Part shown: piece after piece, positions 41,615-46,641 of the stretch
Layout of the letters: every line of letters starts with the position of its first letter
Position numbering within the stretch: position 1 is the stretch's first letter
Source of the DNA: Picochlorum sp. 'celeri'
Lineage: Eukaryota; Chlorophyta; Trebouxiophyceae
Direction of reading: 5' to 3'
Length of the DNA: 64,000 nt
Assembly (NCBI GenBank): GCA_010909725.1
Contig: JAACMV010000030.1
Location: forward strand, 992,001 to 1,056,000
The notes under the pieces: model-generated
The model's input: only the letters and a program-made list of their open reading frames with translations
What the model was told of the DNA's origin: nothing
Databases searched by the model: none
Program-made: the position numbers and the translations under genes

Positions 41615-44410
41615 ATGTGTCTACTACACTTCGCTGCAACACTGCTGTGGCTGATTGGCGCCATCAGAGCTGCTACAGGTCAATCTATATGCTCTTGGCA
41701 AGAATTTGATCTTCCTGCGAAGGGAACTTGGGTAGAGCCCCTGGTGTACAAGTTACAACTTGATGTGCTCATGCAAGAACCATGGACGGTCACAGGAGAG
41801 TCTGCTATTGACGTCATTGTGCATCAGCCGACAAAGTGTGTGGTTCTCAACTCTGTTGGAATCAATATCACAGAAGCAGGGGCACAGGATCTTGGTTCTG
41901 CTGCCCTTTCATATGAGGAACAGATGGAGCAGGTGACTCTAAGTTTTGACAGGCCTTTGCTGGCTGGAAATCATACTTTACTGTTTCAGTTCAGATACGA
42001 GATCAAGAAAGACCTAAATGGATTTTATAGGAGTACGTACGTGCAGGATAGAGAGGAAAAGACCATAGCAGTCACTCAGTTTGAACCAGCGGCAGCAAGG
42101 AAGGCTTTTCCATGCTTTGATGAACCCAGTATCAGGTCTGAGTTCGAAATTTCTATTACGACTAATAAAAAGTACACAGTACTATCTAATATGCCACCTG
42201 CTCAAGTAATGGAGTCAAAAACCCACAAAGCATGGTTCTTTGAAAGGACCCCTCCCATGTCAACATACTTGGTTGCATTTTTGGTTGGGGAACTCGGCAC
42301 TAGGATGACCACCATCCCGCCCTATGACAATCAAGTTGGTGTGAAAAAGACTCCAAAATATTGGTTTGGTGGACAAAGTCCTCGAAACCTCTCTGTTTCC
42401 GGAAATCCTGATCAGTCAAAAGACACTGAGTATGGCTTGGACAGTGCCACTCAGCTGTTGCTTGCCATGGAAGACTCTTTCAAGATAGCATATGCCCTTC
42501 CAAATATGAAACTGGTTGGTTTGGCTGACTTTGCTGCAGGAGCAATGGAAAATTGGGGTCTCCTCACGTATAGGGCAAGTCTCATTCTCGCTTCAAGCAC
42601 CACATCATTTCTTGGGAAGCAGGATATATTGACAACGATAGCTCATGAGATTGCACACCTGTGGTTTGGAAACCTCGTCACCCTTGAGTGGTGGAATTCT
42701 TTATGGTCCAAAGAATCATGGGCTACTCTGTTTCAATATCTTGCAGCAGACGTTGTCGACCCAGAAGGAGGCACCATGATTGATTTCCAAGCAGGTGTTT
42801 TGAGAGGAAGCTTCAGTGAGGACCTCAAGGAGTCAATTGCTCCCTCACGCAATGCAATAAATTCTTCTGATGATATTTGGGCTCTGTATAATACTGTTGT
42901 ATATGAGAAGGGTGCCAGTATCGTATATATGCTTCGCCAGTGGGTTGACCGCAATGGATCATCTCAGATTCTGAACCCCATGCTTGATTCTAGCTCTTTG
43001 TTCATGGATGCGGTGAGGACATATCTCTATAATTTTAGCTATGAGGCTGTATCCTCAGAGCAGCTGCTGGAGAACTTTGGAGAATCCTTGGAAATGGACA
43101 TCCCTGGAATGATGCAGACTTGGTTATATGAACCTAGCTATCCAGTTGTCTTTGTGCGCAGAGATCAAGAGACCGGGCAGGTGTGGCTAGTCCAGAGACC
43201 AATGCTGGATAATGCTACATTCGGCAACTCATGTGATGAGAACAGTCTGTGGTGGATTCCTGTGGCGTTTAGAACCAGCATGGCTCCTGAACAGGTTATG
43301 TGGACAGAGTTTGAAACATGCCAATCCTCTGTACCTATCACAACACTGCCGGACGATGCATGGATCTATGTGAACACAGGATCATATGGTCATTACCGTG
43401 TGATCTACGACTCTCACTTGATGGGGAAATTAATAGAAGCTATCCCTGTTCCCGGAGCTCTCCCAGATATTGATCTTCTCTCGTTGATGCAAGATGTTAC
43501 AGCCTTGCCGGCAGATGGTCGAATTGGGGCGTTCATCACATTGACTCAGATTGTGAAGTCTAGGCCAATAACAGACAATTTATCTTATGCTGAGGCATTG
43601 CGTGGTATGGTGATGCTTGCACGTAGATTGAATTGCTCTGAGGATATTGGCAGGTATTCAAGAAGGTTCATTTATGAACCAATGCTGGAGTTGCCGGTGC
43701 CTGGTTATCCGAATCTCACAGGCCGGGATGTTTTTGGAGTCCAAAACTTGAGTGAAGATGTTCCAGTCAACATTCAAATATTGAAATCAAAGCTCTTCGG
43801 CTTGATTGGAGACCTGGATGGACCCACTGTACCAGAGACCGATTTCCAGGGGTACTTTGATCAGATTTTAGATGGCAACATTGAGCAGGACATTGATCCA
43901 TCCTCGTATTTCTTCATCATGAATCAAGTGATGAGAACAGGACGCCAGGAGGCACTTGATAAAGCCGTCGAAACGTTGCAAATCACGAATGATGCATCCC
44001 TCAAGGTTGAGATATTGAGGGCAATTCCATATTTCCCAAATCAAACCCGCATATTGGAGCTGGCTCTCTCTCCATCGATTCGTGGACAAGATAGCTTCAG
44101 TTTGATTCGAGGCACAGCAAGGAACCCATCTGCTGGGTTGACCTGTACTGAATGGTTGGCCGAAAATTTTGAACAAGTCTCTGCAAAGATTGGCCCTACT
44201 TTTGGCAGTGGATTGGAGTCGGTATGCATAAACTTTGTCACCGATGAACGCGCCATTTCCGCGCTGGAGAAAATTTCTAATGCCTTTCCAGACTCTTTGA
44301 AGAATGTGGAAAACGCAATAGCAAAAGTCCAGCGTAATAGAGCTTCAATCAAACAGATCCAAGGTGTGTGTTCCATGGTGTCTGATATTTTGGTCAGCAG
44401 GATTGAGTGA
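41615..44410 (+). CDS. Secreted/membrane-lumenal M1-family zinc aminopeptidase
   Basis: A single-exon 931-residue protein from the first ATG of the frame at 41615, chosen because it starts a signal sequence (LLHFAATLLWLIGAIRAATG). The M1 fold is complete: N-terminal beta domain with PCFDEPSIRSEFEISI; the substrate-binding GAMENWG near residue 309; zinc site HEIAH (344-348) with the third ligand Glu in LWSKESWATLF, 18 residues later; and the catalytic Tyr region VVYEKGASIVYMLRQW. The C-terminal half is the helical ERAP1-like domain. Several N-x-S/T sites fit passage through the secretory pathway. It removes N-terminal residues from peptides; specificity is unknown. No C-terminal anchor is seen. 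The open upstream frame could add residues if a spliced exon exists. Confidence 0.9.
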   Translation: MCLLHFAATLLWLIGAIRAATGQSICSWQEFDLPAKGTWVEPLVYKLQLDVLMQEPWTVTGESAIDVIVHQPTKCVVLNSVGINITEAGAQDLGSAALSYEEQMEQVTLSFDRPLLAGNHTLLFQFRYEIKKDLNGFYRSTYVQDREEKTIAVTQFEPAAARKAFPCFDEPSIRSEFEISITTNKKYTVLSNMPPAQVMESKTHKAWFFERTPPMSTYLVAFLVGELGTRMTTIPPYDNQVGVKKTPKYWFGGQSPRNLSVSGNPDQSKDTEYGLDSATQLLLAMEDSFKIAYALPNMKLVGLADFAAGAMENWGLLTYRASLILASSTTSFLGKQDILTTIAHEIAHLWFGNLVTLEWWNSLWSKESWATLFQYLAADVVDPEGGTMIDFQAGVLRGSFSEDLKESIAPSRNAINSSDDIWALYNTVVYEKGASIVYMLRQWVDRNGSSQILNPMLDSSSLFMDAVRTYLYNFSYEAVSSEQLLENFGESLEMDIPGMMQTWLYEPSYPVVFVRRDQETGQVWLVQRPMLDNATFGNSCDENSLWWIPVAFRTSMAPEQVMWTEFETCQSSVPITTLPDDAWIYVNTGSYGHYRVIYDSHLMGKLIEAIPVPGALPDIDLLSLMQDVTALPADGRIGAFITLTQIVKSRPITDNLSYAEALRGMVMLARRLNCSEDIGRYSRRFIYEPMLELPVPGYPNLTGRDVFGVQNLSEDVPVNIQILKSKLFGLIGDLDGPTVPETDFQGYFDQILDGNIEQDIDPSSYFFIMNQVMRTGRQEALDKAVETLQITNDASLKVEILRAIPYFPNQTRILELALSPSIRGQDSFSLIRGTARNPSAGLTCTEWLAENFEQVSAKIGPTFGSGLESVCINFVTDERAISALEKISNAFPDSLKNVENAIAKVQRNRASIKQIQGVCSMVSDILVSRIE

Positions 44411-44761
44411 TGTCTCGTGCTGACGAATAGTACACAACTTGTATACGTCGTATGTATGCAAATACTATTTTTTTTTCATATGTTTATATCTGTTTATACA
44501 TAATAAGGTATTACCTTAAAGGTATGTCTCTAGTTGCCTGGACCAGACCATCCACACTCGATGGTGCCGCTACCAGGCATCAATTCCGTGTCAGCCACAT
44601 TCTCTAACTTATATATGCATACTGGGCTGTATAATCTCGCTCGTATAAGCCTCAAAATCCCTGGTATAGGCCAAAACCCGATTTCAATATGTTTATATTC
44701 TTGAAAAAATTCACAATTGTCAATCACGTAGTTTCTCGCGCATGTCCCATGCGGTGTAGCC
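44411..44761. other. Intergenic stretch with a nested hairpin; leader of the permuted tRNA
   Basis: A 99-codon leftward ORF is not family-like. A nested hairpin is listed separately at 44535-44579. The last bases (44753-44761) form the leader strand of the tRNA bulge-helix-bulge. Confidence 0.45.
44535..44579. repeat. Nested hairpin (7-bp outer stem, 6-bp inner stem with 7-nt loop)
   Basis: TGCCTGG (44535-44541) pairs with CCAGGCA (44573-44579). Inside, ACCATC (44547-44552) pairs with GATGGT (44560-44565) around a 7-nt loop. It resembles an acceptor stem plus one arm, but the loop is not a T-loop and there is no D or anticodon arm. It could be a 3'-UTR structure of the aminopeptidase mRNA. 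Confidence 0.6.
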
Positions 44762-44866
44762 ACCAATAGGTCCCCCGTTCGACTCGGGGTGGTCGGACTG
44801 TTGACGTCTCCATCATCTGATGGTTTCACCGACCATAGCTCAGTTGGCTAGAGCGATTGGCTGTAA
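44762..44866 (+). tRNA. Permuted tRNA-Tyr(GTA) gene: 3' half precedes 5' half
   Basis: The 3' half (44762-44797) is A38, anticodon-stem CCAAT, variable AGGTC, T-arm CCCCG-TTCGACT-CGGGG, acceptor TGGTCGG and discriminator A. After 31 nt (44798-44828) comes the 5' half (44829-44866): acceptor CCGACCA, TA, D-arm GCTC-AGTTGGCTA-GAGC, G, anticodon-stem ATTGG and loop CTGTAA with anticodon GTA at 44863-44865. Joined 37/38, all stems pair perfectly (acceptor 7/7, D 4/4, anticodon 5/5, T 5/5). The leader and trailer can form a relaxed bulge-helix-bulge: CTGT (44861-44864) pairs with GTAG (44756-44759), with 3-nt bulges CCA and AAA whose cut sites fall exactly at 37/38. T5 and T7 runs at 44875-44879 and 44886-44892 are pol III terminators. 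No conventional order of these halves exists here. Confidence 0.9.
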
Positions 44867-44874
44867 ACTTCATC

Positions 44875-44892
44875 TTTTTGCGTCGTTTTTTT
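44875..44892 (+). terminator. Pol III oligo-T terminators after permuted tRNA-Tyr
   Basis: TTTTT at 44875-44879 and TTTTTTT at 44886-44892 follow the tRNA 5' half by 8 and 19 nt, the normal position for RNA polymerase III termination. Confidence 0.6.
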
Positions 44893-45363
44893 GATTCATG
44901 ATGCACCGCAGTATGTGCACACACGTGTGGCCAGCAGGAGACTGCTGCTGCAAGACTGCCTCAGTCTTCTACAAATGTTGACTTCTTCGATGATGTTTTG
45001 CATCGCACACACATACACACACATTTATTGAGAGAGAGAGAGAGAGAGTAAAATCTATAGCATTCTGGGATATAAATGTGTGTGTGTGTGTGAAGAGAGA
45101 GCGAATCGAGACTGGTGTTGTTTTGTATTGAGAGCCAGCTCTTGGGATTTTGGGCGCGACTCGTGATCATCCACCTCGAGGTGGTTGGTTGGTCGGTCGA
45201 TACCCTTGATGCAACGATAGATGGATGGACAAGCATGCTTTGCGCATGATAAGAATTAAATATTACATTTGGAATATTTGACAGGTATAGAACGTGGTAT
45301 CGAGTCTGCCGGTGTGTCAGTGGTCACAGCGACGAGGTGGATTTTTCTCTTGGATACTAGACA
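44893..45363. other. Intergenic stretch with microsatellites
   Basis: No gene. It contains (AC)n, (GA)n and (TG)n tracts described separately and, near its end, the upstream region of the KEN-box gene. Confidence 0.5.
45006..45100. repeat. Inverted microsatellite cluster (AC)n-(GA)10-(TG)n
   Basis: An AC tract (about 45006-45022) followed by ATTTAT, then about ten GA units (45029-45048), then ATAAAT and a TG tract (45077-45092) and GA units. ACACACATTTAT and ATAAATGTGTGT are complementary, so the flanks can fold into a hairpin with the GA tract in the loop. Confidence 0.75.
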
Positions 45364-46641
45364 ATGACAGACAACCATAGCAAGCTTGCTCTTAGAGATC
45401 TTAGCAATATTCAACATGGAAATAGCATTGTGGGGAAGAAAGGGGTGTCGTTGGACTCGGTGTCGTCGGTTGGTGCGTGGTTGTCATGTGGATGGGTACT
45501 TGCGGTGTACTACTGCTACTGACGTATGTGCAATATTGCAGATATCAGTGCGCTGATGAAGAAAGCCATGTCTACGCAGCAGGATAATGCATGTCGGCCT
45601 CGAAAGGAAGCGACGGTGGCTGTGTATCAAGATTTTGATGACAAGGAAAATGCAGTGGGACAACGTACGTCTGGTGGCAATGGGAAGAAAGGGCTTGGTC
45701 ATCGGCGCCCAGAGACGAGGAACAGTATGGTTCAGAGGCCGGCACGATATGGTGATTGGTTTGATGGGGATGATGCTGAACTGGAAAAGATGGTTGATGA
45801 ATTCAATGACGAGCAGGTACAACAAGGGAACAAGAAGGATGGTTCGGATGTGGCTCGTCATGTGAGGGAAATAGCGGATGGATTATGCAGTCAGTTGGAC
45901 TCTTTGATTGATGAGAGTGAGCTGGAGGGCAGTGCTGATGAGCAGAGTTTGCGGGACAAGTTGTTGGAGTCTTGGGAGGGCAAGAGTTATTACGATAGGC
46001 TGCTGCAAATGACTGGTAGCAATGAGACGACTAGTACATTGATTCAAAAATCGCTGGAAAAACAAGGGAAGGCACGCTGCCAGCAAGATAAGGCGGGGAG
46101 TCCATCAGATTCTTCTGATAGCATGCACTCCACAGAGCCGCTCCTTTCTCCTCCAAAAAGGAGGGGCCATAGATCAAAGCAACAAAGCCTTGAAGTGAAA
46201 ATACCAGACCATCCTCTGATTCCAGAGGAAGCATTGACTGTAGTAGACAAGAATAAAAGGAGCACAACTCAAAAGCAGCAACCGACTGGGCCAGGGCTAT
46301 TGAAAGTGTCTGCTCGTGGGTCAAAAGCGGGAATGGCACCGTGGGAAACAAAACAGGACAGTACGATGTCTCGCAAAGCCCAGGCTGCGAGGAAGCAGCT
46401 TCGCAGCCATCAAGGAGCCTATGCAAGTGCAGAAGGCAGTGCCAAAGCCCTTGGGATGAAATTGTCCAGCCTCAAGGAGAAGCCGGTATCGTTGAAACAT
46501 GCGACAGAAATAAAAAAGGAATACGACGCAATGCATTCAGAGGTACAATCTTTGCTCGCAGCCGTGACCAACCTTGCCAGCAGCATCTCTGCTGGCAGGG
46601 CTCAGATTGACACTGTTGTGACATCACTTCAAAAGGACTAG
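45364..46641 (+). CDS. KEN-box-containing hypothetical protein, two exons
   Basis: Exons 45364..45472 and 45542..46641 join over a 69-nt phase-1 intron (TTG|GTGCGT, TTGCAG|ATATC) into a 402-residue protein. The choice of donor is fixed by frame; the alternative GTACTT donor leads to a stop. The N-terminus contains ALRDLSNIQ, reminiscent of the A-x-x-L-x-x-I/N segment near destruction boxes of mitotic proteins, and residues about 65-70 contain a clear DDKENAV KEN box. The middle is acidic (DDAELEKMVDEFNDEQVQQG) with short Ser-rich PPKRRGHRSK, and the last 90 residues form a coiled coil (EIKKEYDAMHSEVQSLLAAV). I recognise no family. An APC/C-regulated cell-cycle protein is a reasonable guess only. 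Confidence 0.65.

Follow-up and report, generated by a model that had tools for sequence, protein, structure and literature searches.

The tRNA-Tyr locus in the window

Can a tRNA gene whose 3′ half lies upstream of its 5′ half be a working gene, and is such a gene an oddity of its genome or typical of it? These questions are raised by a locus in a 64,000-nt stretch of DNA from Picochlorum sp. 'celeri', analysed as a whole and referred to below as the window. Both halves lie on the same strand in reversed coding order, a 3′ half of 36 nt being followed by 31 intervening nt and a 5′ half of 38 nt. Joined between positions 37 and 38, the halves form a 74-mer which ARAGORN identifies as tRNA-Tyr(gta) and in which our permuted-tRNA finder counts 21 of 21 standard stem pairs. 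The neighbouring frames are a peptidase M1 frame ending at 44410 and, on the other side, the next frame of at least 150 codons at 45523. The features of the locus, in window coordinates, are as follows.

44707–44712, + strand: AAATTC, putative external promoter element, common to other permuted and conventional tRNA genes
44756–44762, + strand: leader arm of the bulge–helix–bulge (helix GTAG 44756–44759, bulge 44760–44762)
Between 44761 and 44762, + strand: leader-side cut predicted from the bulge–helix–bulge register
44762–44797, + strand: 3′ half of tRNA-Tyr(GTA), positions 38–73 (position 38 is A44762)
44773–44789, + strand: T arm, within the 3′ half
44776–44786, + strand: B-box region (positions 52–62, by position assignment), upstream of the A box
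44790–44796, + strand: acceptor strand, within the 3′ half
44797, + strand: discriminator A; CCA is not encoded
44798–44828, + strand: intervening sequence of 31 nt, between position 73 and position 1
44829–44866, + strand: 5′ half of tRNA-Tyr(GTA), positions 1–37
44836–44847, + strand: A-box region (positions 8–19, by position assignment), downstream of the B box
44861–44867, + strand: loop arm of the bulge–helix–bulge (helix CTGT 44861–44864, bulge 44865–44867)
44863–44865, + strand: anticodon GTA, within the 5′ half
Between 44866 and 44867, + strand: loop-side cut predicted from the bulge–helix–bulge register
44875–44879, + strand: T5 run, probable RNA polymerase III terminator
44886–44892, + strand: T7 run, possible back-up terminator

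The original prediction had described the half order with its 31-nt separation, a perfect cloverleaf with a GTA anticodon on joining at 37/38, A and B boxes in reversed order, and polymerase III terminators downstream. Its letters and coordinates are correct to the base, and the cloverleaf, the box order and the T runs, as probable terminators, are borne out by the features above. Read in native order, the DNA yields no tRNA: ARAGORN reported 0 genes across the window, and Rfam gave 0 matches at gathering scores. An ordinary intron-containing tRNA-Tyr was also considered and rejected; with introns allowed, ARAGORN found none in the window or in loci L009 and L010.

Chance and model controls

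The finder demands a T arm, an acceptor, a D arm and an anticodon stem in permuted order. The Tyr locus was its sole match in the window, even at the lowest bar of 17 of 21 pairs. When the window was shuffled 200 times under a first-order Markov model (12.8 Mb in all) and searched with a bar of at least 19 pairs, three matches had 19 pairs, two had 20 and none had 21. A permuted-tRNA covariance model (R1), whose 12 training rows are tRNAs of the Picochlorum genome in a form rotated at 37/38, gave 77.5 bits at the Tyr locus and 8.6 bits at the second-best place in the window; because the Tyr gene is one of these rows, the former score is partly due to construction. Folding is a point against the permuted reading. 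Left unconstrained, the precursor reaches its minimum energy (−54.8 kcal/mol) in a structure that differs from the permuted cloverleaf with its helix, into which it can be forced at −47.2 kcal/mol; the permuted cloverleaf gains no support from this. Unmodified tRNAs often have a minimum-energy fold other than the cloverleaf. The best reading of the locus is a type II (37/38) permuted tRNA-Tyr gene.

A set of permuted tRNA genes

Counted per haploid set, the genome contains no fewer than 19 permuted loci, the one in the window among them, with 18 anticodons including that of Tyr. They comprise Tyr (GTA), Cys (GCA), Met (CAT, read as elongator), Ala (AGC, CGC, TGC), Thr (CGT, TGT), Val (AAC, CAC), Arg (CCT, TCT and TCG, the last twice), Leu (AAG, CAG, TAA) and Ser (AGA, GCT). 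Loci besides Tyr are, for example, L038, L042, L054, L057, L058, L071, L075, L079, L080, L084, L085, L086, L089, L090, L098, L105 and L120. The 18 others lie mostly on other chromosomes than the Tyr gene, which, as one of at least 19, is ordinary for the Picochlorum celeri genome.

The census used A-box, B-box and variable-loop patterns, followed by the covariance model and the finder on the resulting loci; the permuted tRNA-Cys(GCA) gene turned up as a match with mismatches in the pattern search for Tyr 5′ halves. Since the patterns are short, 19 is a lower bound, and the search for conventional copies was directed at Tyr alone. All 19 loci join at 37/38, the sole junction sought by model and finder. 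Twelve of them have 21 of 21 stem pairs and seven have 20 of 21, at a background of about 0.04 matches with at least 20 pairs predicted from the window shuffles for the 127 loci examined (284,300 bases). Model scores range from 26.8 bits for Ser(AGA) to 77.5 bits. Conventional genes reach up to 29.1 bits under the same model (L043, L069) and so outscore Ser(AGA), which is therefore accepted on the finder's count of 21 of 21 pairs. With introns allowed, ARAGORN reported no tRNA at the loci of the further permuted genes. Twenty further regions that were examined included three with permuted genes (L105, L106, L120), three with an ARAGORN tRNA (L104, L113, L114) and 14 with neither. Two kinds of candidate were rejected: the B-box pattern matches L065, L066, L067 and L077, in which neither the model nor ARAGORN found a tRNA and which on inspection are coding-like or unrelated DNA, and L096 and L097, where neither ARAGORN nor the finder called one.

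Intervening stretches measure 11 to 128 nt (130 nt in one copy on the other haplotype), compared with a longest stretch of 74 bp in the table of a 2014 review (PMC3978253). The 128-nt stretch belongs to Arg(TCG), of which two permuted copies lie on one chromosome. At L075, permuted Val(CAC) (+ strand, C5:52592) and Val(AAC) (− strand, C5:52994) genes face each other about 400 bp apart. Two pairs of apparent alleles, L089 and L101 (Ala CGC) and L098 and L106 (Ala TGC), have strikingly different D arms and intervening stretches; the acceptor, the anticodon loop and, nearly, the 3′ half are conserved between them.

Predicted splicing signals and the endonuclease

A strict bulge–helix–bulge for cutting at 37/38 calls for pairing between bases −6 to −3 of the leader and bases 32–35 of the loop. 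The original prediction had placed a relaxed form of this motif, with cut sites exactly at 37/38, at the Tyr locus, and the central helix indeed pairs at four of four positions, two of them G–U, while the outer helix is weak on inspection. A single gene's helix proves little, because 105 of 306 pairings of leaders with the loops of other genes also reach three pairs or more. The motif is borne out at the level of the set. Across 18 genes, one per anticodon, the central helix averages 3.17 of 4 pairs (three or four pairs in 16 of 18), against 2.22 for leaders paired with other genes' loops and 1.2 to 1.8 in seven shifted registers, and none of 20,000 shuffles reached the observed sum. With all 21 unique genes the mean is 3.19, again with none of 20,000 shuffles as good. 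Cys (2 of 4 pairs) and Ser(GCT) (1 of 4) have weak helices. This shared register is the strongest evidence for the predicted processing of the permuted set at 37/38.

Matches to PF01974 (splicing endonuclease) in the genome are of two kinds by score, and the nearest solved structures to these genes are Sen34 and Sen2, the two catalytic endonuclease subunits. The Sen2-like subunit has seven equal-scoring matches, on C9, C10, C12, C16, C21, C25 and C26. Three of these matches have the same position within different contigs (C12 measures just 25 kb); the multiples are either a duplicated segment or redundant assembly pieces.

Haplotypes and alternative explanations

Matches to tRNAs in the assembly mostly come in pairs, on two contigs each, and the homologous contig of the other haplotype bears the same permuted tRNA-Tyr gene. 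Identity between the haplotypes is 93% across 674 matched query bases. Over 44715–44895, differences are confined to the intervening stretch (three substitutions and one indel, giving 32 nt instead of 31), with 0 of 74 tRNA bases, 0 of 47 leader bases and 0 of 29 trailer bases affected, a distribution that fits a constrained gene with a free spacer.

The original prediction had called for a genome-wide search for a normal tRNA-Tyr gene that could account for the mature tRNA-Tyr. The search found none, and the permuted reading was not refuted by it. The joined tRNA-Tyr matched only the two alleles of the Tyr locus. Patterns for the tRNA-Tyr 5′ half, with two D-loop lengths and up to three mismatches, matched these two alleles and halves of Phe, Lys and Cys, with no further GTA half in the genome; a strongly diverged tRNA-Tyr gene would evade such patterns. 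None of the 34 RF00005 matches (from 63 scored of 866 candidates) lay at the Tyr locus, and ARAGORN labelled none of the 18 RF00005-matched loci examined as Tyr.

These results bear on the possibility that the locus is a dead remnant, in which two adjacent halves are left over from a disused tandem array of ordinary tRNA-Tyr genes. Duplicated tRNA genes are seen by Soma (2014) as a plausible intermediate toward permuted genes. Yet the haplotypes, which do differ in flank and intervening stretch, agree at every tRNA base, the searches made found no other tRNA-Tyr gene, and 19 loci share the same anatomy with the endonuclease helix in register. We therefore consider a remnant very unlikely. It is extremely unlikely that the halves come from two transcripts and are spliced to each other in trans, like archaeal split tRNAs. 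The splicing signal would be identical in that case; the halves, however, lie 31 nt apart on the same strand, and no run of four Ts separates them, T runs occurring only past the 5′ half. The chance that an assembly error swapped the halves of an ordinary gene is close to nil: long reads alone were used to polish the published Picochlorum celeri assembly, and L084 and L100, copies of Arg(TCG), differ by apparent homopolymer indels, but the reversed order recurs in both haplotypes with different intervening sequences and at 18 other permuted loci, most of them on other chromosomes. The Tyr locus is a real permuted tRNA-Tyr gene and almost certainly a functional one.

Candidate transcription signals

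A run of four or more Ts occurs within 40 nt downstream of all 19 permuted genes and of 21 of 22 conventional ones, at a background of 14%. Upstream, the motif AAATTC was first spotted by eye and then scored against all 4096 hexamers and as its reverse complement. It is the top enriched hexamer in the stretch from −70 to −15 in each gene set separately, being present in 11 of 19 permuted genes (0.37 expected, corrected p 4e-11) and 9 of 22 conventional genes (0.43 expected, corrected p 6e-7). The reverse complement was found in 0 of 19 and 0 of 22 genes, respectively. In five further 55-nt upstream stretches, AAATTC occurred in 4, 0, 2, 2 and 0 of 19 permuted genes and in 0, 2, 0, 0 and 0 of 16 conventional genes. 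The hexamer counts leave out L040, L059 and L092 among the conventional genes and, among the permuted ones, all second alleles; those of the reverse complement and the further stretches leave out L099 as well. L092, possibly an allele of L024, carries AAATTC, and L040 and L059 lack it. Overall, about half of the tRNA genes found, permuted and conventional alike, have the motif at a distance of about 20–55 nt upstream, and it is missing from the rest.

The U6 gene (L122, L123) served as an independent test. AAATTC is absent from the roughly 300 nt that flank this gene on each side, a result that speaks against a general polymerase III element; inspection showed a TATA-like sequence nearby. Soma (2014) argues that A and B boxes in reversed order do not suit TFIIIC and that in algae upstream sequences may stand in for them. 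The presence of AAATTC upstream of both architectures suggests that transcription is driven by sequence external to the displaced boxes. The motif is a concrete candidate for an upstream promoter element, a role proposed from its position and enrichment.

Conventional tRNA genes

The 22 conventional genes counted are Lys (CTT, TTT), Ile (AAT, TAT), Asn, Val (TAC), Glu (TTC, CTC), Met, Asp, Pro (AGG, TGG, CGG), Phe, Trp, Arg (CCG, ACG), Leu (CAA), Gly (TCC), Ser (CGA, TGA) and L114. Five ARAGORN labels were overridden by reading the loop, namely L023 as Arg(CCG), L025 as Leu(CAA), L026 as Pro(TGG), L104 as Ser(TGA) and L113 as Arg(ACG); Rfam alignments put the stems in the same places. Among the genes found, and leaving L114 aside, the only anticodon common to the permuted and conventional lists is CAT, and the conventional Met gene is presumably the initiator, judging from its anticodon stem. 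L114 (C14, − strand, locus 491–592) is an intron-bearing Ser(aga) gene according to ARAGORN, whereas the Rfam alignment makes it a shorter tRNA whose anticodon loop has 4 nt; it is possibly a pseudogene. If the ARAGORN label is right, Ser(AGA) would be the second anticodon in both lists. The patterns used did not locate genes for Gln, His, Gly(GCC/CCC) or Thr(AGT), and a 5′-half pattern of the His/Gln type yielded Asp only.

Pieces resembling tRNA 3′ halves also occur elsewhere. At L005, L033 and L040, the same 3′-half-like piece, which contains a B box (AGGTCCCGGGTTCAAA), directly abuts the 5′ end of a conventional tRNA-Asn or tRNA-Phe gene; L040 reads GGGTCCC. This arrangement may survive from a stage in which the gene was duplicated or permuted, or the piece may serve as an external B box. 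In addition, GGGTTCGAGCCCC is present at nine places about 4–20 kb from contig ends, on C4, C14, C15, C18, C27 and C30. Its copies in L107 and L121 lie inside a tRNA 3′-half-like piece (GGTGGTCCGGGGTTCGAGCCCC), with no tRNA called around them.

Comparison with known permuted genes

Permuted tRNA genes had been said in the original prediction to be known from Cyanidioschyzon merolae and some prasinophytes, and Table 1 of PMC3978253 lists both. Picochlorum belongs to Trebouxiophyceae (NCBI) and is not a prasinophyte; one protein encoded in the window shares 98% identity with a protein of Picochlorum sp. SENEW3. The review table contains 34 permuted genes, comprising 11 from C. merolae, 19 from four prasinophytes, two from a nucleomorph and two from an archaeon (PMC3978253).

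Prasinophytes (Ostreococcus, Micromonas) and chlorarachniophyte nucleomorphs are like Picochlorum in that the junction lies nearly always at 37/38 (type II) and is marked by an hBH motif, with intervening stretches of 5–64 bp, compared to 31 nt in the Tyr gene described here (PMC3978253, PMC4494063). They differ in number, with up to six genes per genome in the table and no tRNA-Tyr (PMC3978253), whereas Picochlorum has at least 19 loci. Cyanidioschyzon merolae shares with Picochlorum a nuclear location and a large number of permuted genes. Its 11 genes have several junction positions, in contrast to 19 loci all joined at 37/38, the sole junction sought, in Picochlorum; a circular intermediate and aminoacylation have been reported for the red alga and an upstream promoter suggested (PMC3978253). 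The sole permuted tRNA-Tyr in the table, also with a GTA anticodon, is that of the archaeon Thermofilum pendens, which has a 59/60 junction (type IV), a 1-nt intervening stretch and an extra intron at 37/38 (PMC3978253).

A further parallel comes from Auxenochlorella UTEX 250-A, likewise a trebouxiophyte with reversed halves, in which the tRNAscan-SE set was incomplete and permuted genes were detected afterwards (PMC12633428, PMC12636532). This 2025 work reports permuted tRNA genes in a trebouxiophyte, and those of Picochlorum are not mentioned in the portions available (PMC12633428, PMC12636532). In the Picochlorum SENEW3 paper, tRNAs were annotated by tRNAscan-SE, and the stem 'permut' is absent from the main text. 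Among the literature matches listed, whose coverage leaves out most subscription journals and supplementary files, none described a permuted tRNA-Tyr from a eukaryote, a set of this size or permuted genes of any kind from Picochlorum. The Tyr gene is thus of a kind already known, and the set to which it belongs is unusually rich, its 19 loci exceeding any in the 2014 review table as available (maximum 11, in Cyanidioschyzon merolae; PMC3978253).

Proposed pathway and implications

The locus is very probably a nuclear tRNA-Tyr(GUA) gene of Picochlorum, circularly permuted at 37/38 and processed via a circular pre-tRNA. Transcription, cleavage, circularisation and charging are taken over from the model that has been published for algae of the red and green lineages. 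On that model, a single RNA polymerase III transcript would comprise the leader, the 3′ half, the 31-nt stretch, the 5′ half and the trailer, and would stop at the T run. The acceptor strands of the two halves would pair across the intervening stretch and the strands of the anticodon stem with each other, bringing leader and trailer together as a bulge–helix–bulge. The tRNA splicing endonuclease would then cleave on the 3′ side of position 37 and the 5′ side of position 38, and these two positions would be joined by a ligase into a circular pre-tRNA, from which RNase P and RNase Z would excise the intervening stretch; CCA would be added afterwards.

Picochlorum celeri is described as a fast-growing marine green alga, and transformation and gene editing have been reported for the genus. 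The set makes it testable how RNA polymerase III transcribes genes with reversed internal boxes and why some lineages accumulate permuted genes. Standard tRNA annotation of such algae can overlook a large part of the tRNA set. For Picochlorum, a wider proposal, which we regard as having an even chance of being correct, is that nearly half of the anticodons, apparently including all those of Ala, Cys and Tyr, are carried solely on permuted genes, and that this was enabled by the shared external AAATTC element replacing ordered A and B boxes. If this is true, permutation would be neutral and would advance like a ratchet through the tRNA gene set once the internal promoter has become irrelevant.
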